A stretch of 64,000 nt of DNA, taken from NCBI RefSeq assembly GCF_036347135.1, contig NZ_CP108938.1, positions 8,804,001 through 8,868,000 on the forward strand, written 5' to 3'. The DNA comes from Streptomyces sp. NBC_00775. GTDB lineage: Bacteria; Actinomycetota; Actinomycetes; Streptomycetales; Streptomycetaceae. The notes below the pieces were generated by a model that made no database searches, was not told the DNA's origin, and was given only the letters and a program-made list of their open reading frames with translations. Below are positions 31,635 through 45,067 of this stretch, in pieces. Numbering within the stretch: position 1 is the first letter of the stretch; each line of letters opens with the position of its first letter. The position numbers and the translations under genes are program-made.

Positions 31635-32423
31635 TCACCCCAGGCGTTGAGCCAAGCCCCCGGTGCACCTGACCTCATCTCCCGCCGTGATCAGCAGGGC
31701 CTCGATGTCCGGGAGCGACTCCAGCCAGTCCAAGGCCTGGCGGGAGCCCATCGCGAAAGCCGCTGTTGCCCAGGAGTCCACCCAGGTCAGGTGGGGGCCC
31801 ACCACGGTCACCGCCACCAGGTCGGTGACCGCGGACTTGCCGGTGCTCGGGTCGACGATGTGGGCGCCGCGCTCGACTGTGCCGGAGGTGGCCACGGCCA
31901 GTTCGTCGACGCCGGCCGCGGAGACCACGGCCGCGAGTGAGCCCGGGCGGAGCGGGTCCGAGATGCCGACCCGCCAGGGCCGGTGCGATCCGGGCACGCC
32001 GTACAGCTGGACGTCGCCGCCGCCGTTGACGCTCACTCCGCTCGCCCCGGCGGCGGCGAGGTGCCGGGCCGCGCGCTCCGTCGCCCAGCCCTTCACGATC
32101 CCCGTCGGGTCGAGCCGTCCCTCGTACCTCGTGCTGAACCAGCCCTCGCTCAGCCGCTCGGCCTCCGCGCCCAGACCGAGCACCTCGGCGACCTCGGGAT
32201 CGCACTGCTCGACGCTCAGTTCACCGCGCGCCAGCCGCGAGATCTGGCTGTCCTCGCGGTAGGTGCTGAACACCTCGTCCACGCGGTGGAGTTGGGCGAT
32301 CGCCTCCTCCAACGCCGCCTGGACAGGGCCCGGTTCTCCTCCCCGTACGTCGAAGGAGAAGACCGTGCCCATGACCTCCTCGGCGTGGCGCAGCGCGGGC
32401 GGCGCCTCCGCGGACTCAGCCAC
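31635..32423 (-). CDS. apbE: FAD:protein FMN transferase (ApbE)
   Basis: The 262-residue enzyme moves FMN from FAD onto a Thr of an exported flavoprotein, in a magnesium-dependent reaction. Family motifs are present: VMGTVFSFDVRG, HRVDEVFSTYREDSQISRLA, LDPTGIVKGWATERAA, GVSVNGGGDVQLYG and RGAHIVDPSTGKSAV. No signal peptide or lipobox is seen at the chosen GTG start at 32423, unlike many ApbE proteins, so the modification may take place before export, or the true start differs. It is the last gene of the flavin electron-transfer operon and overlaps the FMN-binding protein gene by eight bases; its substrates are surely those two neighbours. Confidence 0.92.
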   Translation of the reverse strand: MAESAEAPPALRHAEEVMGTVFSFDVRGGEPGPVQAALEEAIAQLHRVDEVFSTYREDSQISRLARGELSVEQCDPEVAEVLGLGAEAERLSEGWFSTRYEGRLDPTGIVKGWATERAARHLAAAGASGVSVNGGGDVQLYGVPGSHRPWRVGISDPLRPGSLAAVVSAAGVDELAVATSGTVERGAHIVDPSTGKSAVTDLVAVTVVGPHLTWVDSWATAAFAMGSRQALDWLESLPDIEALLITAGDEVRCTGGLAQRLG

Positions 32424-33246
32424 CGGCCTTGTCCAGGGCCGACTGGAGGGACTGCTTGTAGCCGCCGCTGGTGTAGGTGGCGCCGGAGACGGCGTCGATG
32501 TCGGCGCTCCCGGCCGCGACGGCTTCCTGGTTGAGCTTGGGTACGGCCAGCGCCGTCTTCTGGCTGCTGGTGCCGCCGCTGGGTGCCTGGACCGCCTCGG
32601 CCTTGGTGATCTTGTCGCCGCTCAGGGTGATGCGGACCTGGACCGGCCCGTACTGGGTCTGGGCGACGCTTCCGGTGATGATGCGGGCCTGCGTGGCGGG
32701 GGCCTGGGTGGCCGGTGCCTGGGGCGACGAGGACGAGCCCGAGGACCCGGCGGCCGACCCCGAGGATCCCGACGTACCGCTGCCCGCGGTCTTGGCCTTG
32801 TCCAGGGCCGACTGGAGGGACTGCTTGTAGCCGCCGCTGGTGTAGGTCGCCCCCGAGACCGCGTCGATGTCCGCGCTCTGTGCGGCGACGGCCTCCTCGT
32901 TGAGTTTGGGGATGGCCAGGGCGGTCTTCTGGTCGCTGGTGCCGCCCGCGGGCGCCTGGACGGCCTCCGCTTTGGTGATCTTGCCGCCGCTCATGGTGAG
33001 CCGTACCTGGACGGGCCCGTACTGGGTCTGGGTGACGCTTCCGGTGACGGTCTGCGAGCCCGTCTGTGACGCGTTGCCGCCCTGGGGCGACTCCTGCCCG
33101 GCCGCCGTCTGCTGGGGCGCCGTTCCGCCCTGCGCCGACGCGGCGGCCGGATCGGACGCGGGCTTCAGCGACAGCAGCAGGACGATCCCGGACACGGTGG
33201 CGGCGGTGGCGAGCACGACGCGCCGAATGGGGTGGCTCTTCTTCAT
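32416..33246 (-). CDS. Exported protein with two tandem FMN-binding domains
   Basis: The 276-residue protein has an N-terminal membrane anchor or signal (RRVVLATAATVSGIVLLLSL), then a Gln/Ser/Gly linker. Two FMN-binding domains follow (about 65-147 and 188-274), separated by a Ser/Gly/Ala/Pro-rich linker. Each domain carries the ApbE target motif in DAVSGATYTSGGY; the Thr after GA should carry covalent FMN. The domains are 71 of 80 residues identical, so the duplication is recent. The protein probably passes electrons between the neighbouring membrane reductase and an outside acceptor. It lies between the first ferric-reductase gene and apbE. Confidence 0.9.
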   Translation of the reverse strand: MKKSHPIRRVVLATAATVSGIVLLLSLKPASDPAAASAQGGTAPQQTAAGQESPQGGNASQTGSQTVTGSVTQTQYGPVQVRLTMSGGKITKAEAVQAPAGGTSDQKTALAIPKLNEEAVAAQSADIDAVSGATYTSGGYKQSLQSALDKAKTAGSGTSGSSGSAAGSSGSSSSPQAPATQAPATQARIITGSVAQTQYGPVQVRITLSGDKITKAEAVQAPSGGTSSQKTALAVPKLNQEAVAAGSADIDAVSGATYTSGGYKQSLQSALDKAGG

Positions 33247-33265
33247 CGCTCCTGACTCCCGTCGC

Positions 33266-34645
33266 TCACATCTCGAACGACTCGTGATGGATGCGGCGGG
33301 CGGGGACCCCCGCGCCGCGCAGTGCTTCGTACACCTCTTGGGCGAAGCCGGGCGGCCCGCACATGAAGACGTCGTGGCGGTCGATGTCCGGCAGCTTGCG
33401 GCGCAACGTTTCCGCCGAGATGTCCGGGCGCTCCCCGCCGGGGCTGTTGACCGCGTACATCAGCCGGGCCCCGCGCTCCTTGGAGATGACGGCGAGCTCG
33501 TCCCACAGCGCCAGGTCCTGGGTGCTGTTGGCCCGGTACAGCAGCGTCAGGTCGCCGGACGCGCCGGGCAGCGTCTCGAACAGCGCCCGCATCGGCGTGA
33601 TCCCGACGCCGCCCGCCACCAGCAGCACCTTGCCGCGGCTGCGCTTGCCCGCCGTCAGCGCCCCGTAGGGGCCCTCGGCCCAGACCCGGGTGCCCGGCTC
33701 CAGGTCACGCAGCGCGGAACTGTGGTCGCCGATCGCCTTCACAGTGATACGCAGCATGGTGGGGCGGGGCGCCGCCGACAGCGAGTACGGGTGCGAGCTC
33801 AGCCGCATGCCCGGCGCCAGGAAGCGCCAACGGAAGAACTGCCCGGCCTCGGCGCCCATCCGGTGCAGCTTCCGCCCGCTGATCAGCACCGACACGATCC
33901 CGGGCGTCTCCTCGATCACCGCCTCGACCCGCATCCGGTGCTTCAGGTTGAGCCGGATCGGCGAGAGGATCCGGTACCAGACGACGAGCGCGGTCACCGA
34001 CCCGTACAGCCCGTACCAGACCGTCTTCGCGGTGGGCTCGACGGCGAAGTCGTTGCCGGTGGACAGCTGGTGCCAGAACGTCAGGAACACGGCGGCGTAC
34101 GTCAGCAGGTGGACGTGGTACCAGGTGTCGTACGGGATCAGCCGGCGGACACCGCCGATGGAGATGAACCCGATGAGCACCAGCAGACCCGTGCCGATCG
34201 CGGCCTTGCCCATGTCGGGCAGCTGGTTGACCGAGTCGATGGTCTGCTGGACGATCCCGCCGAGCCCCTTGCCGGACTGCAGGGCGTAGCCCCACATGGT
34301 CAGGAAGAGATGGGCCAGGACCAGACAGATCGTGTACCGGCCGCTCATGGCGTGCCAGCGGGCGACCCGGTCGGAGCCCACCCGGCGTTCCAGGGCGGGC
34401 ACCCGGGCCATCTGCAGCACCACGAGCGCCATCAGATAACCGGCGAGCAGCCCGGTGATCCGGCCCGCGTTGAGGATCTTGCTGTTGTCGTCCGCGATGG
34501 ACGGGGTGTTGTTCCACCACAGCCAGATGACCCCGGCCGCGCCCGCCCAGACGGCGAGCAACAACGGGACGGCGGGCGAGCGGCGTGGGCGAATACGGCG
34601 CATGGTCTGGCGCCGCGCGGCGCGACCACCGGCGATCGTGGACAC
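33266..34645 (-). CDS. Ferric-reductase-like membrane flavoprotein, copy 1
   Basis: The protein has 459 residues from GTG at 34645, with GGAGG upstream; the frame runs on to 34969 only as a shadow of the next gene. About six membrane helices with paired His residues (RVARWHAMSGRYTICLVLAH and WYHVHLLTYAAVFLTFWHQL) should hold two b hemes. They are followed by an FAD-binding barrel (QFFRWRFLAPGMRLSSHPYS) and an NAD(P)H domain (VLLVAGGVGITPMRALFETL, FMCGPPGFAQEVYEAL). The enzyme should move electrons from cytoplasmic NAD(P)H across the membrane to the flavinylated partners or to Fe(III). The acceptor is inferred from context. Confidence 0.88.
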   Translation of the reverse strand: MSTIAGGRAARRQTMRRIRPRRSPAVPLLLAVWAGAAGVIWLWWNNTPSIADDNSKILNAGRITGLLAGYLMALVVLQMARVPALERRVGSDRVARWHAMSGRYTICLVLAHLFLTMWGYALQSGKGLGGIVQQTIDSVNQLPDMGKAAIGTGLLVLIGFISIGGVRRLIPYDTWYHVHLLTYAAVFLTFWHQLSTGNDFAVEPTAKTVWYGLYGSVTALVVWYRILSPIRLNLKHRMRVEAVIEETPGIVSVLISGRKLHRMGAEAGQFFRWRFLAPGMRLSSHPYSLSAAPRPTMLRITVKAIGDHSSALRDLEPGTRVWAEGPYGALTAGKRSRGKVLLVAGGVGITPMRALFETLPGASGDLTLLYRANSTQDLALWDELAVISKERGARLMYAVNSPGGERPDISAETLRRKLPDIDRHDVFMCGPPGFAQEVYEALRGAGVPARRIHHESFEM

Positions 34646-34728
34646 GGTTCCTCCGTGTGTCGTCCGTGGGGACGGGGCGAGGGGAGTGGCCCCCTGGCCC
34701 AGAGATACGGTCCCCGACGGCCGTGCGT

Positions 34729-35235
34729 TCAGAGGCCCGCAGAGTCCAGTGCCGACTGGAGGGACTGCTTGTACCCGTCGCTGGTGTACGTGGCCCCCGA
34801 GACGGAGTCGATCTGCGCGCTCTGGGCCGCCAGCGCCTCCCGCCTGAGCTGCGGAATCGCGTAGCTGTTGATCTCCTGGTCCTTCGGGTTGTCGGTCGGG
34901 TAGGCGACCGCCGTGACATCGGTGATCCTGCCGTTCTTCACCGTCACGCGCACCTGGACGGGGCCCCAACGGGTCTGGACGGTGTCGCCGGTGACCGTCT
35001 TGGTACCCGTGCTCTTCGTGGTTCCGGAGCTGCTGGGGGAGCCGCTCGGGGAGCTTCCGGATGTGCTTCCTGATGAGCTTCCGGAGGACGAGGACTGGCC
35101 CGACGACGAGGACGCCTGGACCACGGTCGGCGGCGTGTGCGGCTTCAGCGACAGCAACAGGACGACACCGGTGACGGTGGTCGCGGCGGCCAGCGTCACT
35201 CGCCGCAGCGGACGGTTCTTCTTCAGGGCGTGCAA
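34729..35235 (-). CDS. Exported FMN-binding domain protein, single domain
   Basis: The 168-residue protein starts at TTG 35235, seven bases after the stop of the second ferric-reductase gene. An N-terminal hydrophobic segment (RRVTLAAATTVTGVVLLLSL) is followed by a Ser/Gly-rich linker of about 40 residues and one FMN-binding domain (about 80-167). The flavinylation motif is in DSVSGATYTSDGY, and the C-terminus YKQSLQSALDSAG is nearly identical to those of the two-domain protein. It is anchored at the outer face of the membrane. Together with the reductase genes it forms a reductase/FMN-protein pair that occurs twice in this operon. Confidence 0.9.
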   Translation of the reverse strand: MHALKKNRPLRRVTLAAATTVTGVVLLLSLKPHTPPTVVQASSSSGQSSSSGSSSGSTSGSSPSGSPSSSGTTKSTGTKTVTGDTVQTRWGPVQVRVTVKNGRITDVTAVAYPTDNPKDQEINSYAIPQLRREALAAQSAQIDSVSGATYTSDGYKQSLQSALDSAGL

Positions 35236-35242
35236 GGCGGCC

Positions 35243-36604
35243 TCACAGCTCGAACGACTCGTGGTGGATACGGCGGTCGGGGACCCCCGCGGCGCGCAGC
35301 GCCTCGTACAGGTCCCGCGCCATCGCGGGCGGGCCGCAGAGGTAGATGTCGTGCCCGGCGATGTCCGGCACGGCCTCGCGCAGGGATTCGGCGGTGAACC
35401 GCGGACGCGTTCCGTCGGCGCCGTTGACCGCGTACAGGACGCGCGCCCCGCGCCACTTCGCGATGGCCTCCAGCTCGGCGCCCAGCGCGAGGTCTTCGGC
35501 CGTCCGCGCCCGGTAGAGCAGCGTGAGGTCGCCGGGCAGCTCCTCGAACAGGGCGCGCAGCGGGGTGATGCCGACGCCGCCCGCGATCAGCAGCGCCTTG
35601 GGCGCGGTGCTCCGCTCGGCGGTCAGCGCGCCGTACGGGCCCTCCGCCCACACCCGGGTGCCGGGCCGCAGCAGCCCCACGGCGGCGCTGTGGTCGCCGA
35701 GTGCCTTCACGGTGATCCGCATCAGATCGGGGCGCGGCGGCGCCGACAGCGAGTACGGCGTGGAGGTCCACCGCATCCCCTCGGCGAGGAACCGCCAGCG
35801 GAAGAACTGCCCGGCCTGGGCCTTCAGTTCGTCCAGCCGCTCCCCGCGTACGACGATGGAGAAGACGCCCGGCGCCTCGCGGTACACGGACTCGACGCGC
35901 AGCTTGTGCCGCAGGTTCAGCCGCACCGGCGCGAGCAGCCGGAACCACACCACCAGCGCGGCCGTGCCCAGATAGAGCACGTACCAGGCGGCCCGGGCGG
36001 CGGCGCTGCCGACGAAGTCGGAGCCGAGCGCGAGCTGGTGGAAGAAGGCGAGGAACACGGCCACGTAGGTGAGCAGGTGCACGTAGTACCAGAACTCGTG
36101 GCTGATCCGGCGGCGGGCCACGCGCGCCGAAGTGATCCCGACGGCGAAGAGGATGAGCGTGCCGATCGTGGCCTTGAGCATGTCCGGGTAGTCGAACACC
36201 ACGCTCAGCGTCTCGTCCACGATGCCCGACCCGTCCTGGGCGGCGTACCCGAAGAGGATCAGCGTGACGTGCGCGACGAGCAGGCAGACCGTGTACCGGC
36301 CCGCCATGGCGTGCCAGCGGGCCACCCGGTCGGAGCCGATGCGCCGCTCCAGGAGCGGGACCCGGGCCATCAGCGCCACCAGGATCGCGCAGCTGTAGCC
36401 GCACAGCAGCCCGCAGATCCTCCCGGCGTCCGTCAGCCAGCCGCCGAGGCCCACCACCGACCGGGTGTCGTACCACCACAGGGCGACGACCGCGGCGGCG
36501 CCGGCCCACAGCAGGGCCAGCAGCGGCCCGGCGGGGGAGGGCCGGGGGCGTCGGCGCCCTCGTGCAGGGCGCGGGAGGGCCGCCCGCTCGTACGTCGTGG
36601 TCAT
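35243..36604 (-). CDS. Ferric-reductase-like membrane flavoprotein, copy 2
   Basis: The 453-residue protein is the first gene of the leftward operon and a paralogue of the protein at 33266-34645. Membrane helices with heme-ligand His pairs (RWHAMAGRYTVCLLVAHVTL, FWYYVHLLTYVAVFLAFFHQ) precede an FAD domain (AQAGQFFRWRFLAEGMRWTS, TPYSLSAPPRPDLMRITVKA) and an NAD(P) domain (LLIAGGVGITPLRALFEELP, YLCGPPAMARDLYEALRAAG). Both paralogues end in the same motif, RRIHHESFE followed by L or M. The ATG at 36604 lies about 50 bases from a pair of direct repeats thought to bind the divergent response regulator. Confidence 0.88.
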   Translation of the reverse strand: MTTTYERAALPRPARGRRRPRPSPAGPLLALLWAGAAAVVALWWYDTRSVVGLGGWLTDAGRICGLLCGYSCAILVALMARVPLLERRIGSDRVARWHAMAGRYTVCLLVAHVTLILFGYAAQDGSGIVDETLSVVFDYPDMLKATIGTLILFAVGITSARVARRRISHEFWYYVHLLTYVAVFLAFFHQLALGSDFVGSAAARAAWYVLYLGTAALVVWFRLLAPVRLNLRHKLRVESVYREAPGVFSIVVRGERLDELKAQAGQFFRWRFLAEGMRWTSTPYSLSAPPRPDLMRITVKALGDHSAAVGLLRPGTRVWAEGPYGALTAERSTAPKALLIAGGVGITPLRALFEELPGDLTLLYRARTAEDLALGAELEAIAKWRGARVLYAVNGADGTRPRFTAESLREAVPDIAGHDIYLCGPPAMARDLYEALRAAGVPDRRIHHESFEL

Positions 36605-39136: not shown

Positions 39137-39748
39137 TCAGCCCGCGGAGCCGCAAGAGGATTCGGGCGTCATGGACGTCACCGCGTCGCGGTCCAGCGTG
39201 ACGCTTCCGCTCCCGCCGTCCGTCAGGCGAAGGATGACCCCACCGGGCCCCAGGCCGAGCAATTCCCCGCACTTGTCTCCGCTCGGCGTCGTGACGCGGA
39301 CCAGATGGTCCGGCAGCGTGTCGGCCGTCGTCCAGAAGATGCCGATCGCCACGGCGACGAGCGCGATCCCGCCGACGCAGCACACCGACGCGTACCGGAG
39401 GAAGCGAGTCACCCGGACCACCTCGGTATCGGTCCATCGGCGCAGCGCCTGCCCGGCCAGCAGGAGACGGCGCCCAGGATTCCCATGCGCCGCTCGCACG
39501 GCGAGGACGGAACCGATGACGAGCAGCAGGAAGGCCCCGGCGAGGAGTGCCGTTGCCGTGTGGCGTGCGGCTGAAGGAAGTTGGTCGAGGCTGTCCCGAC
39601 CCTTCAGAGTGACCAGGACGGCGACGAGTGCGGTCAGACCGGTGAGCCCGGTGCGCCAGCCCTCGGCCTGTCGTCGCAGCTCGGGCAGTTGGGTGAACTC
39701 CAGCTCACGCGCGAGCTGTGCCCATCTCCTGTCCGACTGGGCGCTCAC
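39137..39748 (-). CDS. Multi-spanning membrane protein coupled to the caspase/GHKL gene
   Basis: The 203-residue protein begins at GTG 39748, overlapping the stop of the upstream small gene. A charged N-terminal helix (RRWAQLARELEFTQLPELRR) precedes three hydrophobic segments (WRTGLTGLTALVAVLVTL, TALLAGAFLLLVIGSVLAVR, VCCVGGIALVAVAIGIFW). The C-terminal 60 residues look like a small beta-domain (LVRVTTPSGDKCGELLGLGP). I recognise no family. As the third gene of a coupled operon with the caspase-like giant protein, it could be a membrane effector or an anchor. This is inference from position only. Confidence 0.7.
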   Translation of the reverse strand: MSAQSDRRWAQLARELEFTQLPELRRQAEGWRTGLTGLTALVAVLVTLKGRDSLDQLPSAARHTATALLAGAFLLLVIGSVLAVRAAHGNPGRRLLLAGQALRRWTDTEVVRVTRFLRYASVCCVGGIALVAVAIGIFWTTADTLPDHLVRVTTPSGDKCGELLGLGPGGVILRLTDGGSGSVTLDRDAVTSMTPESSCGSAG

Positions 39749-40125
39749 GGCGCGTCATCCTTTGTGAGTGTGGACACGCGCCAGCTCGCTCCGCAGCCTA
39801 TGGGGCTCGCGTCCGAGGGGATGTTCGGATGGGGGTGGCTGCATTCGCAGTAGTGCACCTCAAGTTTCAGCACAGCGACGTCGGAATCGATGTCTGGGGC
39901 CGTCTCCGCGGCCTTCAGCCAGGAGAGCAGCCCCTTGGTCCCGCTGCCGGGCAGTCCGTGCCCGTATTCGCTGGCCGTTCTGCCGTGACAGCGGGGGCAG
40001 TTGCCCTCGACGACGACGCTGCCGTCCGCGTACGAGCGCCCCCGGAAGGGGGTGGGCACCTCGCCCATGTGCTCTTCGGCGTAGACGGCGTCGAAGTCGT
40101 GGGGTGGGTGAACCGGGTTAGTCAT
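39745..40125 (-). CDS. Small Cys-rich (zinc-ribbon-like) protein coupled to the caspase/GHKL gene
   Basis: The 126-residue protein starts at ATG 40125, inside the last eight bases of the giant gene. Cys/His groups CPRCHG (about residue 43), HYCECSHPHP (about 92) and GCGASW (about 110) could form one or two zinc sites. The N-terminal part is acidic and may be flexible. I recognise no named family; adaptor or nucleic-acid-binding roles are possible. The tight overlap on both sides shows that it belongs to the three-gene operon. Confidence 0.72.
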   Translation of the reverse strand: MTNPVHPPHDFDAVYAEEHMGEVPTPFRGRSYADGSVVVEGNCPRCHGRTASEYGHGLPGSGTKGLLSWLKAAETAPDIDSDVAVLKLEVHYCECSHPHPNIPSDASPIGCGASWRVSTLTKDDAP

Positions 40126-43100
40126 GGTCCTTGTCCAGGTGTAGGTCGAACATCGTGGCGTACAGGCGCAGTCGGCTTCGGATCCACGCCTCGCACTCGC
40201 CGGTCGCGTCAGCGGCGAGCGTGACGTGGCGCGGTGACATAAGGCCTTCGACGGCGGGGAGTCTGCCGTCGAGGTGCTCGGTGAGGAGGATGAGGTCCTG
40301 CCAGAGAGGGATGGTGTTCGGGGTGGGCGGCAGCACGCTCGCCGTGGGCCACAGGGGGAGGTAGGGCTCGATACGGCGGACGGTTTCGGGGAGCGGTTCC
40401 CCGAGCCTGCCCGCGAGGCTGACCAGGTCGAGGGGGCTGGGCGGTTCCTCCTCGTCGGTCAACCGGTGCTCTGAGGAGAGGGCCACGAGGTCGTGGCCGC
40501 TCGGGACCGCCCTGGGCAGCGCGTCGAGTGCTTCTCGCGGCAGATCCGGCACCAAAGCGCCGAGGGGGCGCAGCGCGGCGAGGCGTTCGTAGGCGGTGCG
40601 CGTGTCGATCTCGGAATCCTTGGCGTAGGCCGCGAGAGCCGCAGGTGTCAGCGACTTCCATGCGTAAGGGAGGTACTCGCCGTTGGCATCGAGCGTTTGA
40701 TACGTCAGAGCCAGGCATTCGCGGTGGGTGGGGCGGTACTGCGCGAACTCGTGCGGAAGTGGGGGCACGGCCAGTCCGAAGCGGTCGGCGTCCCGGCGGG
40801 CGATCTCCCACACCTCCTGGAGGGCTTCGTGAAGAAACTCGGCGGATTGGAAGAGCGCAGCCGTGGTCAGATACTCCGCAGGGCAGTCCTCGGAGCTGTA
40901 GGAGAGGTCCTTGCCGGAAAGGACGTACCGACTGCGCAGCGGCAGATCCGCCCACGCGAAGATGATGTCGATGTTCTCCGGAAGGCTGACACCCGCCGTC
41001 TGCAGTTCGTTGACAGCACCGGGGAGCTCTGCGTCCTTCTCCGTCACATGGGCGGCATAGGCGAGTTCGTTCAGACGGACACCGTCCTCCAGTGGGCAGT
41101 CGTACTCGGCAAGTTCTCCCACGAGTTCCACCGCCCGAGCGGAGGGGACCAGATGCCGGCCCTGGGAACCGTGTGTGTAGCGGCGTTCATGCACCATGTC
41201 CATGCTCGTGGCGATCCGCGCCAACTCTTCCTCGGCTTCGCCGAGGTCCGCTCCCAGGCGCTCGGCCATGGCGAAGGTAGCGGCCCACGGCAGCACTCGC
41301 CGTCCGTCGGGCCCGACCCAGGTGAAGGACTTGAGGACGGCGAAGGCATCCTCGTCGAGCTTTATCCATGCGTCGACTTCCGCGGCGGCGGGGGTGGTCC
41401 AGCCGAGCCATTCGAACCGGGTCAGTGTGTCGAGGATCTCCGAGACCGGCGCATGGGTGCTTTCGCTGACCGCGCGTACGTCCTCCGGTCCACTCACACG
41501 CCGTACGGAAGGGGTGAACGGTTGGGAGATCAGTAGATGTGCGATATCCCTTGCTGTGCACACGTAGTTCTCGTGATGGGTCGGGACGTCCGGAAAAGGC
41601 GCCACGCGCAGCGGCGCGTACCGCGCGCAACGCCCGATGACCTCTCCCAGCGGCATTCCCAACTGTTGCGAGGCGAGAACCAAGTTCCCAAGTTCATCGG
41701 GGTGTCTGCTGGCGTCGGCCACCCAGCCAAGGTTTTCGGCGGTGTCCAGCCGACGGGTGATGGCTCTGTCGAACTCGTCGGGAACCCACGACGGATCTTC
41801 CCCCGTCACGGGCGGCGGGCCTTCGCTGGTGTGGGCGATGCGCAGTCGACGCTGGCGTCTGACCACGTCACGCACCGTCTGGCCGTGATCCGCTGCGTGT
41901 CTCACGACCTTCCACCACATTTGCTGGGTGTCCGTGGGCAGGGACGCGTCGCCCGGTCCCGGCACCGGATAGCCTTCCAGGCTCAGGGGGGCGGACGAGG
42001 CGAAGGAGCCGTGCCTCATTCCCAGGGCGGCGTAGCGCCACGGCGCGAGCTGAGGGCGCTCGACGTTCGATCTCTTCGACTGGGCACTGGAAATGTACGC
42101 ATTGTCGAGGTGGAACCACCCCTCGATGTCGAGTGCGTGCGACTCCTGCATGCCACGGCGTACGGCGATGCCCCGGCCACGCCACTCGTCGTGGAGTACC
42201 TCGGCGACGGGCCGGTTGCGCCGGTCCAACTGCCACAGCCACTCCATGGTCAACTGCGGCCAGTCGACGAGTGCGGCCGCCCCCTTGCGCCAGTTCTCCT
42301 CCGCCCAGTCGGCATCGAAGTCCTGGAGCTCTTTGCGGCTCACGCTGAGGCGCCCCGCGTGCGGGCCGGTGAGATTGAGTACGAAGCCGAACGGCTTCTG
42401 GTCCGTCATGATGCCGTCGCACAGCACCGCGCCCTCGCCGGGCACCCACCACAGCACATCGCGCACGGCTTCCAGCGGCTCACCGTCGGTGCTGTCGGGT
42501 GCAGGCTGCAGGACGTCCGGCGTCCACATGTGCGGAACGCCCGCAGAGTCGCTCACCTCCAGGCTGAACTCGCTGACCCTGATGAGCTTCCGCAGGGCGT
42601 TGACACAGGACAGACCCTCCGCCACCACGTTGCTGCGGAGATACAGCCTTACCCGCGTGCCGCCTCTGGCCATGCCGTCACCAGAACCGTCATGGCGCTG
42701 GATGCGAAACAGGCTGCCACTGCTCGGGATGTCCACCTGGAGGGCGTGTTTCGCCGGAATGCCCTCGGTGCTCACCTGGCGGGTCACGATGGTCATCTCG
42801 TCGGCGAGCATGAAGTAGCTGAACACACCGATGCCGAAGCGGCTGTTGGGGTATAGCCGCAGCGCGGAGTCGTGACGCAGCCACCGGGACTGTTCGCGAC
42901 GGAACGCCTTCGACTGCTCGAATCGGCTTCCCGCGCGCGTGAAGGTGTACTTGAGCTGCTCCGCGCTCATGCCCACGCCGTTGTCCCGGCACTCGACGTA
43001 ATGCCCGCGCTCGTCCTGGCCCTGGGTGATGACGATCTGGCCCGACCAGTTGTCCGGATCCGAGCCCGTGTTCCGCAGATAGGACCAGCGCATCGCACGG

Positions 43101-45067
43101 TAGCGGCAGGCGTCCATGGCGTTCTGATAGAGCTCGCGCAGCGCCAACTGCGGTTCACCGCCGTACAGTTGCTCGCCCATCAGCAGCTCACGCACTTCGG
43201 TCTGCGCGAGGTGGAAGCGGAGCAGTGGGATCTCGTACGAAGGTCCGCGTGACGTCCGTCGTGGGCGGACGTCACGAGCCGTCACCTTGGTGGGTACCCC
43301 CACGAGCAGGGCGGCCTCGGGTTCCGGCAGGCTCTTGGCCAGTCCCGCGATCTGCTCGGCGTGCTGGTGGCCCTGCTCGGCGATCTCGGTGAGTGCCGCG
43401 TGCAGCGCTTGATGCGGGCAAGGCGCGTCCAGATGGAGGGCGTCACCGTCACGTGCCCAGCTCAGCCTGCGGGCGATGCCGATGACCTCCTGCGGCAGGA
43501 CGGGGTCGGTGACTGCCAAGTGCTCGGCCACCACGTCCGGGAAGGACCGCACGTCCACGGCCAGGGTGGCCGCGAGACGCAGTAACCGCGTCAACGGACG
43601 TATCCGGAAGCACTGATGGCCATCCGGCAGGAGCACCTTGCTCAGGGCGTGGGTCTCCTCGCCGTCCGGCGGTTCCTCGCCCCCGATGGCTGCCGCCGTG
43701 GCCCGCAGGAGGTCCGCGAGTTCGTGCACCCGGTCGTCGGCGACCGCGTCGCGCGCGCCGAGTAGAGACTTCGCGAGCGTATGGGCCGGCTCGGAGGGCA
43801 CCGCCGCGTCGTCCGTTTCGAACCGTTCTGCGATCCAGCGGTGCACCAGCCACATTGTCACGGCGGTGACGTCCTGATCACGGTCCCGCGCACGGCACTC
43901 GGTCACCTTGCGTGCCACGCGCGCGTGCTGGTCGACGATCTGCTCGTAGTGTCTGCGGTGGGCACCCCCGTCCGAGCGCCGTTCCAGGTCGTACGGGGTG
44001 GCCTCCACCGCCTGGCTCAGTCGGTTCGCCCAGGCGGCCTCGTGGAGGAAGGGAGCCGCGACCAGGGCCGCAGCCTCGATCGCCGAGAGTGTGGCGGACT
44101 CGGGCATCAGCTGAGGCAGCCGGTCCTGCAGCAGGCGCACCGGAAAAGCGTCGTCGTTCCACGGATCCGGAGCGGGTAGCCGGTCCTGCGCCAGATACAG
44201 CGTTCGCGCGCATTGCTCCACGAGAGCGTCCAAGGACCCCTGGAAACGGGACACGCTTCTCTGGTCGCTCGCGACGACGCGTTGCCACAGCGGAGTCTTG
44301 TGCACGGCATCGCGCCAGGATTCGAGGAGTTCGCGACCGGTGCAGATCTCCCTGCCCCGGGTTTCCTCCTCGGAGTTTGTTCCATACCGGATCGTCGGCG
44401 TCTGGGTCAGACCGCGGAGGCGGCGAGCCCCTTCGTGCGTCTTCGCGCGCGCCATGTCGAAGACCTGTTGGACCGTCCGCGCCGGCGTCATCGGTCCCAA
44501 TGCGTCGGCGAGGGAGCGGGTGAAGAAGCTGCCCTCCGATGTGTAGCCGCTGCGCTCGCCGGCGGAGCAGCCCATCATCACGGCGAAGCCACTGCCCGGC
44601 GGGCCGTTGTCGCTGCTGTTGCCGAACGGATCACCGCCTGCGGTCATATCGGTGCGGCATGCGTCGATCAGCCACAGGACGGTGTCCGCCTTGCACTCCT
44701 TGAGGAGCGGGCTGATTTTCGCGGACAGCAACGAATCTACGTAGGGTCCTTGCCAGTTCCCGTCGCTTGGCGGTGTGACGTCCGCCGGGACCAGGAAGTC
44801 CTCAGTGCCGACTCGGACACCGTGGCCGGTGAAGTACACCAGGAGGGTGCCGCCGACGGGTACCTCGCGGGCCACTTCGTAGAGCCTCGTACTGATCTTG
44901 GACTTCACCGCGTCCAACAGCGTTTCGACCTCGTACCCCGCCCCCTGGAGTGCCGTGTCCATTAACTGGAGATCGGTCGCGACCACGGTGTCGAGAGGCT
45001 CTGTCAGACCGGGTGCCGAGGGCACGTTTCCGACACCGATCAAGAGAGCCCTGTGTGCCTGTTGCAT
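40118..45067 (-). CDS. Giant caspase-like peptidase / Hsp90-GHKL ATPase / winged-helix-repeat protein (putative conflict system)
   Basis: The protein has 1649 residues from ATG 45067, with GGGAGGGG upstream. Residues 1-230 are a caspase-like (C14) domain with His82 in VYFTGHGV and Cys137 in WLIDACRTD. Residues about 240-600 are helical (perhaps an inactive HD-type module). Residues about 605-900 are an Hsp90/GHKL ATPase: LALRELYQNAMDA with Glu645 and Asn649, CRDNGVGM (693-700) and RFGIGVFSYFML (743-754). From about 1060 to the end there are repeated winged-helix-like units such as SESTHAPVSEILDTLTRFEW, AMAERLGADLGEAEEELARI and LAGRLGEPLPETVRRIEPYL. Codons 35 and 495 are TTA, so bldA dependence is expected. 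The GC content looks lower than in neighbouring genes. Known caspase fusions of this style are thought to act in phage defence or programmed death; substrate and trigger are unknown. Confidence 0.85.
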   Translation of the reverse strand: MQQAHRALLIGVGNVPSAPGLTEPLDTVVATDLQLMDTALQGAGYEVETLLDAVKSKISTRLYEVAREVPVGGTLLVYFTGHGVRVGTEDFLVPADVTPPSDGNWQGPYVDSLLSAKISPLLKECKADTVLWLIDACRTDMTAGGDPFGNSSDNGPPGSGFAVMMGCSAGERSGYTSEGSFFTRSLADALGPMTPARTVQQVFDMARAKTHEGARRLRGLTQTPTIRYGTNSEEETRGREICTGRELLESWRDAVHKTPLWQRVVASDQRSVSRFQGSLDALVEQCARTLYLAQDRLPAPDPWNDDAFPVRLLQDRLPQLMPESATLSAIEAAALVAAPFLHEAAWANRLSQAVEATPYDLERRSDGGAHRRHYEQIVDQHARVARKVTECRARDRDQDVTAVTMWLVHRWIAERFETDDAAVPSEPAHTLAKSLLGARDAVADDRVHELADLLRATAAAIGGEEPPDGEETHALSKVLLPDGHQCFRIRPLTRLLRLAATLAVDVRSFPDVVAEHLAVTDPVLPQEVIGIARRLSWARDGDALHLDAPCPHQALHAALTEIAEQGHQHAEQIAGLAKSLPEPEAALLVGVPTKVTARDVRPRRTSRGPSYEIPLLRFHLAQTEVRELLMGEQLYGGEPQLALRELYQNAMDACRYRAMRWSYLRNTGSDPDNWSGQIVITQGQDERGHYVECRDNGVGMSAEQLKYTFTRAGSRFEQSKAFRREQSRWLRHDSALRLYPNSRFGIGVFSYFMLADEMTIVTRQVSTEGIPAKHALQVDIPSSGSLFRIQRHDGSGDGMARGGTRVRLYLRSNVVAEGLSCVNALRKLIRVSEFSLEVSDSAGVPHMWTPDVLQPAPDSTDGEPLEAVRDVLWWVPGEGAVLCDGIMTDQKPFGFVLNLTGPHAGRLSVSRKELQDFDADWAEENWRKGAAALVDWPQLTMEWLWQLDRRNRPVAEVLHDEWRGRGIAVRRGMQESHALDIEGWFHLDNAYISSAQSKRSNVERPQLAPWRYAALGMRHGSFASSAPLSLEGYPVPGPGDASLPTDTQQMWWKVVRHAADHGQTVRDVVRRQRRLRIAHTSEGPPPVTGEDPSWVPDEFDRAITRRLDTAENLGWVADASRHPDELGNLVLASQQLGMPLGEVIGRCARYAPLRVAPFPDVPTHHENYVCTARDIAHLLISQPFTPSVRRVSGPEDVRAVSESTHAPVSEILDTLTRFEWLGWTTPAAAEVDAWIKLDEDAFAVLKSFTWVGPDGRRVLPWAATFAMAERLGADLGEAEEELARIATSMDMVHERRYTHGSQGRHLVPSARAVELVGELAEYDCPLEDGVRLNELAYAAHVTEKDAELPGAVNELQTAGVSLPENIDIIFAWADLPLRSRYVLSGKDLSYSSEDCPAEYLTTAALFQSAEFLHEALQEVWEIARRDADRFGLAVPPLPHEFAQYRPTHRECLALTYQTLDANGEYLPYAWKSLTPAALAAYAKDSEIDTRTAYERLAALRPLGALVPDLPREALDALPRAVPSGHDLVALSSEHRLTDEEEPPSPLDLVSLAGRLGEPLPETVRRIEPYLPLWPTASVLPPTPNTIPLWQDLILLTEHLDGRLPAVEGLMSPRHVTLAADATGECEAWIRSRLRLYATMFDLHLDKDHD

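Follow-up and report, generated by a model that had tools for sequence, protein, structure and literature searches.

Multicellular bacteria commonly possess caspase-like proteins, the targets of which are known in few cases. The question of what such a protease acts upon is raised by a 64,000-nucleotide stretch of the Streptomyces sp. NBC_00775 chromosome (contig NZ_CP108938.1, positions 8,804,001 to 8,868,000; hereafter the window), which encodes a giant protein of 1649 residues with a caspase domain, an iHD-CE domain, an Hsp90-type ATPase and a winged helix-turn-helix (wHTH) array (40118..45067, minus strand). An earlier, sequence-only reading described the giant and overlooked that it heads a conserved three-gene operon. 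The second gene, Cys (39745..40125, minus strand), shares 8 bases with the end of the giant gene and encodes a zinc-ribbon-like protein of 126 residues; the third, TM (transmembrane; 39137..39748, minus strand), starts with GTG, shares 4 bases with the Cys gene and encodes a membrane protein of 203 residues. The Cys-TM cassette recurs beside unrelated caspase-type proteases, and this recurrence of neighbouring genes suggests a bacterial caspase pathway acting on the cell membrane. On balance it is probable that the three genes constitute a caspase-controlled conflict system, causing cell death or growth arrest, with its output at the membrane through the Cys and TM proteins.

The Cys-TM cassette and its proteases

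Clustering of neighbouring genes identified Cys and TM as the most common conserved partners of the giants. The order giant-Cys-TM has been found at 27 loci, with gaps of at most 19 bases between giant and Cys and at most 8 bases between Cys and TM, mostly as 4-base overlaps; outside these 27 stand the second giant of locus L057, and L111, in which the three genes are present in another order. The Cys proteins share invariant CPxC, CxC, H and GCGA elements (19 aligned rows of the 29 proteins found). The TM proteins, aligned in 73 rows after exclusion of rows below 40 bits (L164, L165), possess three hydrophobic stretches and a QAEG.R and KG core that is invariant in 34 rows. The predicted structure of the TM protein consists of three long helices and a small C-terminal beta domain (predicted local distance difference test, pLDDT, 85.7). 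The beta domain bears a conserved cysteine pair, and a short form lacking this domain is common: both cysteine columns are gapped in 11 of the 34 rows of the C14 type.

Searches of both proteins against Pfam and NCBIfam gave no consistent Pfam family for TM (34 members scanned) or Cys (19 members scanned) and no NCBIfam match among six scanned members, three of each. The two proteins gave no Pfam match to a gasdermin family or a metallo-beta-lactamase (MBL) fold, Cys being assessed for gasdermin likeness by sequence only. TgpA_N, PepSY_TM, a holin family and other Pfam matches of TM were discarded as inconsistent, each occurring in just 1-3 of 34 members; S_4TM lay below its cut-off (E 0.054), and KcsA-like PDB matches of the TM profile (E 0.03 or worse) were mixed with beta-lactamase matches and regarded as noise. 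Of 314 TM homologues, the 120 listed are unnamed or called hypothetical, DUF3806-containing or integral membrane proteins. No paper on the cassette was found, in a search that left subscription literature mostly outside, so that absence from print does not follow. What is new, as far as the searches reach, is the operon of three genes together with its recurrent cassette.

The TM profile matched 66 of 392 same-genus genomes, giving 76 rows of which 37 were weak; after 36 weak rows and the missing strong ones had been fetched, 75 of the 76 TM genes were examined (G356 was not among them). The Cys gene adjoins 72 of the 75. Within 4 kb, measured, as are the distances in the two later sets, between stop-to-stop frames, which may be long in such DNA, 34 TM genes have a C14 caspase, all with the giant core, and 26 a CHAT protease. 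All eight large TM-gene neighbours scanned are CHAT proteins above the Pfam cut-off, four of them with TPR matches; the CHAT profile was built from eight Pfam-supported loci of the first set, and the other CHAT calls, except at L188, are by profile only. For comparison, the 761 kb of the 46 TM-less loci that were fetched contained one CHAT match and one C14 fragment outside the giant genes, and eight argG regions taken as a control contained no protease.

For a held-out set of 26 new TM matches from an order-wide draw, it was predicted beforehand that at least 70% would have a protease and at least 85% a Cys gene, with strong TM matches at a giant and weak ones at CHAT. A protease was found at 21 of the 26 (10 C14, nine of these with the giant core, and 11 CHAT), a Cys gene at 25, and a giant at nine of the ten strong matches. 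A further 75 TM loci from named genomes comprised 69 with C14, 68 with the giant core, 74 with Cys and six with no protease; they were selected by the motif QAEG[WY]R[NT], which pre-selects caspase-type TM proteins, and overlap with the first set. TM genes occur in Streptomyces, Kitasatospora, Streptacidiphilus, Acrocarpospora, Micromonospora, Actinomadura and Virgisporangium.

Judged by domain matches, three chassis of the cassette are clear: caspase-iHD-CE-Hsp90-wHTH, CHAT, and caspase-helicase together with TPR-CHAT. The last is represented by L188:8646-16308, where caspase-helicase, TPR-CHAT, Cys and TM genes form one run with matches above the cut-offs. A candidate fourth, L246:7001-11454 (Virgisporangium), has TM beside a protein whose matches to caspase, NTPase and WD40 models all lie below the Pfam cut-offs (C14 18.9 versus 21.4 bits). 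GHG and DCC motifs are present in the caspases of both loci. One Cys-TM pair at L057:5395-16417 lies between two different giants, the four genes being on the same strand; such an arrangement would be expected if two sensors served one effector.

The giant protein and its family

The open reading frame of the giant is real, and all residues named in the sequence-only reading lie where it placed them. The Peptidase_C14 domain occupies residues 6-227 (44387..45052, minus strand as for the domains below; Pfam 6e-16, 59.2 bits versus a cut-off of 21.4). Its dyad, H82 (44822-44824) and C137 (44657-44659), is kept in all 52 caspase-bearing family members. The caspase, ATPase and wHTH array recognised earlier have been borne out; the "helical linker" between the first two is in fact the Pfam domain iHD-CE (residues 251-602, 43262..44317; PF24401, 1.5e-90, 304 bits versus 27), with HD-CE (PF24391, 1.9e-27) likewise above its cut-off.

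The ATPase part covers residues ~612-937 (42257..43234). HATPase models remain below the Pfam cut-offs; HtpG/Hsp90 models and Hsp90 structures match the giant at ~622-814, and in the comparison of its structural model the match extends through residue 937. The Hsp90-type nucleotide-binding fold is thereby confirmed, and the description of it was incomplete, a part of the middle domain with R911 (42335-42337) being present as well. The pocket residues E645 (43133-43135), N649 (43121-43123), D695 and G697 (ExxxN, DxGxG, glycine-rich lid) are kept in 78 of 78 family members. R911, which we take to be the counterpart of the yeast Hsp90 catalytic arginine, is invariant in all 76 rows with a letter at that column. 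Against the full-length HtpG equivalog model of NCBIfam the protein scores 44.8 bits, below the cut-off of 371, and by its sequence this part is classed as Hsp90-like, not HtpG. No STAND NTPase domain was matched in the giant by Pfam at E 1; the Hsp90-type ATPase stands in its place.

The wHTH array spans residues ~1051-1637 (40157..41917), with copies placed by profile at 1094-1151, 1520-1569 and 1585-1637; it is supported by wHTH-HSP90_Na-assoc (PF24410, 59.5 bits versus 23), an iterated profile and a mostly confident helical model. It is the fastest-evolving part of the protein (mean pair identity 0.24-0.28 versus 0.585 for the ATPase, 35 proteins), as expected of a sensor. The earlier idea of a protease joined to an NTP switch and a repeat array agrees with this rate and with the strict conservation of both catalytic centres.

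The architecture, called rare in the sequence-only reading, is not an undescribed one, iHD-CE, HD-CE and wHTH-HSP90_Na-assoc already being Pfam families. Because of these existing families, and because iHD-CE occurs in 62 of the 392 same-genus genomes (the window's own counted), the giant alone is assigned to a known, undercharacterised family; searches of the accessible literature found no paper describing the iHD-CE, HD-CE, wHTH-HSP90_Na-assoc and Pepco Pfam families. The sequence-only reading is right on the protein and incomplete on the system. The presence/absence check that it proposed across Streptomyces gave this patchy distribution, which argues against vertical inheritance in all members of the genus. 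Among 296 genomes drawn from the phylum PF24401 was present in two, both of the same genus and one the window's own; the giant core later turned up in relatives from five further genera, which indicates that the phylum draw was thin.

The family set was derived from 80 fetched loci, with genes from a small in-house codon-based caller. Of 81 sequences, window included, 79 yielded family proteins, 80 in all; no giant was called in L118 and L119, the latter nonetheless carrying fragments. For counts 78 were kept, L125 (a copy of the window) and L094 (score <160) being left out. A caspase is present in 52 of the 78, and the 26 others have different N-termini; among these, L116 is a short gene call with a caspase fragment adjoining. 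Many of the caspase-less starts (e.g. L046, L049, L051, L058, L059, L064), read by eye, carry a short GGTRNVVxGG..VVQAGSI segment or are helix-turn-helix-like. Such varied starts indicate that the N-terminus is an exchangeable module.

The TM partner accompanies 35 of the 52 caspase-bearing giants, two of which (L057) share one cassette, and none of the 26 caspase-less ones. A second partner, Pepco (PF24393), is encoded by a separate 5' gene, accompanies 14 of the 52 and never occurs together with TM; three giants have neither. The Pepco assignment is by Pfam in 16 of 16 aligned rows, the one omitted candidate of 17 (L052) being a poor match. Distances between TM proteins correlate with those between the giant's domains at 0.88-0.93, and those between Cys proteins at 0.67-0.72. 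A second caspase-iHD-CE giant exists in the window's own genome (L065:6558-11090; C1, ~5931557-5936089), Pepco-partnered and without Cys-TM.

A proposed membrane pathway and its rivals

The analysis establishes the domain content, the intact active-site residues, the operon, its conserved gene order and the recurrence of the cassette by different caspase-clan proteases; the course of events set out next is inferred. The C-terminal wHTH array, being the most variable part, would recognise a trigger. The N and middle domains of the Hsp90-type part would then close on ATP and undergo a conformational or oligomeric change, which the iHD-CE domain may relay so that the N-terminal caspase turns active. 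The caspase would cleave or otherwise release the TM protein or its zinc-ribbon-like partner, and the released membrane protein could damage or depolarise the membrane, possibly to the benefit of the cells against phage. The occurrence of the same cassette by proteases with different sensors and switches is what is expected if the cassette is a shared output.

Several results weigh against this reading. No cleavage site has been identified. Caspase-bearing giants without TM number 17 of 52, and 14 of them have Pepco instead. When a tree is built from the iHD-CE and ATPase region, the TM-type giants form one clade (35 of 36 rows, the exception being L079), so that the 35 cassettes count as about one acquisition within the giant family, kept over deep divergence; the Fisher p values computed in the analysis ignore this relatedness. 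Independent support comes from the other chassis. The cassette lies on the strand opposite the protease in 17 of 26 CHAT loci, and a simple pattern run over whole frames picked up both dyad-like motifs of CHAT in only 28 of 37 partners. No protease was detected near 15 of the 75 TM genes of the first set or near five of the 26 held-out ones, and the weak held-out matches comprised CHAT at 11 of 16, a caspase-helicase at one and neither at four. The Cys-TM pairs of L130-L133 likewise have no protease nearby. An anti-phage role, proposed in the sequence-only reading, gained no direct support: the TM protein has no match in plasmid or phage collections, neither a mobile context nor a neighbour known from defence was detected, the neighbours reading as metabolic genes, and PADLOC returned for the locus a generic caspase model only.

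Among the 15 TM genes without a protease, some look like products of decay: L129 has a short frame resembling, by eye, the end of a giant, L119 has fragments, and L126 retains Cys-TM alone. L126, L127 and L128, with TM or Cys-TM and no giant nearby, may be decay products or may show the cassette to be harmless alone. In L130-L132 the cassette adjoins a translation-factor-like gene of ~670 residues, and a gene of 383-394 residues with a similar start lies beside L130-L133. L079:6357-15460 contains the sole TM-clade giant without a TM gene; its neighbour of 1313 residues is weakly CHAT-like by our own profile and has no Pfam match at E 0.01.

The main rival is that the TM protein is a shared membrane input, that is, a sensor or docking site, with Cys as an adaptor, activating several caspase-clan proteases. 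The same linkage of protease and cassette fits this arrangement, the EACC1 system is a precedent for it in the available part of its description (PMC7159879), the cysteine pair in the beta domain of the long forms would suit an exported domain, and the persistence of Cys-TM in L126 without a giant implies that the cassette need not be lethal alone. However, orphan cassettes are equally expected of an effector that needs activation, the common short form of TM lacks the beta domain altogether, and the sensor-like parts vary from chassis to chassis (wHTH, TPR in some, helicase, WD40-like), which would be more expected with a common output than with a common sensor; we consider an input role unlikely. 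Possible, if doubtful, is a role in proteostasis or in cell death linked to development or stress in multicellular actinobacteria, with none against phage. The recurrent chromosomal sites by arg and glt genes (read by eye), the lack of matches in the phage and plasmid collections and the generic PADLOC result speak for this, whereas the restriction of iHD-CE to 62 of 392 genomes, the lack of the operon at argG in eight of eight relatives fetched there, and the fast-evolving array together with the exchanged chassis, suggestive of an arms race, speak against it. That the Cys-TM pair merely hitch-hikes by protease genes without a functional link is scarcely credible: a single clade within the giant family and the 15 of 75 TM genes without a nearby protease would agree with it, but gene overlaps kept over deep divergence, the reappearance of the cassette at CHAT proteins and at further caspase chassis, and the outcome of the held-out prediction led to its rejection.

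The preferred reading, a caspase-controlled system with membrane output, may be compared with known systems. In Craspase TPR-CHAT and in bacterial gasdermin systems the partner of a caspase-clan protease is encoded with it and acted upon by it. Here, too, CHAT proteins form one chassis of the Cys-TM cassette; no gasdermin or CRISPR family is among the Pfam matches of Cys and TM. Of the Pfam set iHD-CE, HD-CE, wHTH-HSP90_Na-assoc and Pepco (PF24401, PF24391, PF24410, PF24393), the first three are in the giant and Pepco lies beside relatives; the difference is the cassette, which has no consistent Pfam or NCBIfam family. In the available part of Kaur et al. (2020; PMC7159879), EACC1 is a single-transmembrane protein proposed as the membrane input of a caspase. 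Both that two-gene system and the present one combine an actinobacterial N-terminal caspase with a small membrane protein; EACC1, as far as that part goes, is the 5' gene and has one transmembrane helix, whereas the TM gene is third and its product has three long predicted helices. The EACC1-type caspase model (NCBIfam) scores 45 against a cut-off of 140, and the giant's 5' neighbour is a PNPOx gene, which places the giant outside the EACC1-caspase systems. The accessible portion of the Canu report (PMC12799240) describes caspase-nuclease and trypsin-nuclease pairs in which a protease/partner pair was repeatedly acquired by unrelated immune systems, and demonstrates the shared-output logic experimentally for protease and pro-nuclease. 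Recurrent pairing and a MALT1-like caspase (here a match at E 0.007) are common to both. The Canu partner is an MBL-fold pro-nuclease, whereas the predicted partners here are membrane and zinc-ribbon-like proteins, and the operon therefore falls outside Canu.

The TM model resembles NINJ1 (ninjurin) by a predicted-structure match alone, a likeness that is suggestive only and serves as a lead. It is quite improbable that Cys-TM is a general plug-in executioner for actinobacterial caspase-clan proteases, the pathway ending in a protein dedicated to membrane rupture and forming a NINJ1-like membrane bundle (by analogy, not descent) with an Hsp90-type clamp replacing the NOD-like receptor (NLR). 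The presence of the cassette by different caspase-clan chassis points to a definite candidate for the target or effector, and ordinary Streptomyces strains would suffice for testing it. If the proposed pathway is true, an Hsp90-type clamp would serve as an immune-type switch, and there would be a further parallel with those animal caspase pathways whose end point is the membrane.

Genomic setting

In the window the operon is located between a histidine kinase gene and the PNPOx gene, in the stretch between argR and argG. This stretch holds the operon also in L054, L066, L071 and L084, and the operon of L057, with its second giant, lies beside the same kinase and PNPOx genes. Among the eight relatives fetched at argG, several have other genes in the stretch. 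Other copies of the operon adjoin gltBD (read by eye). The names argG, argR, gltBD, ferric reductase, translation factor and helix-turn-helix-like were read from the sequences and not obtained by family search. The system looks like an accessory chromosomal one, inherited within clades, often lost and without signs of mobile elements. Elsewhere in the window, at 32416-36604, a tandem duplication of a ferric-reductase-like gene and a small flavin mononucleotide (FMN)-binding-like gene was observed by eye next to a two-component system.

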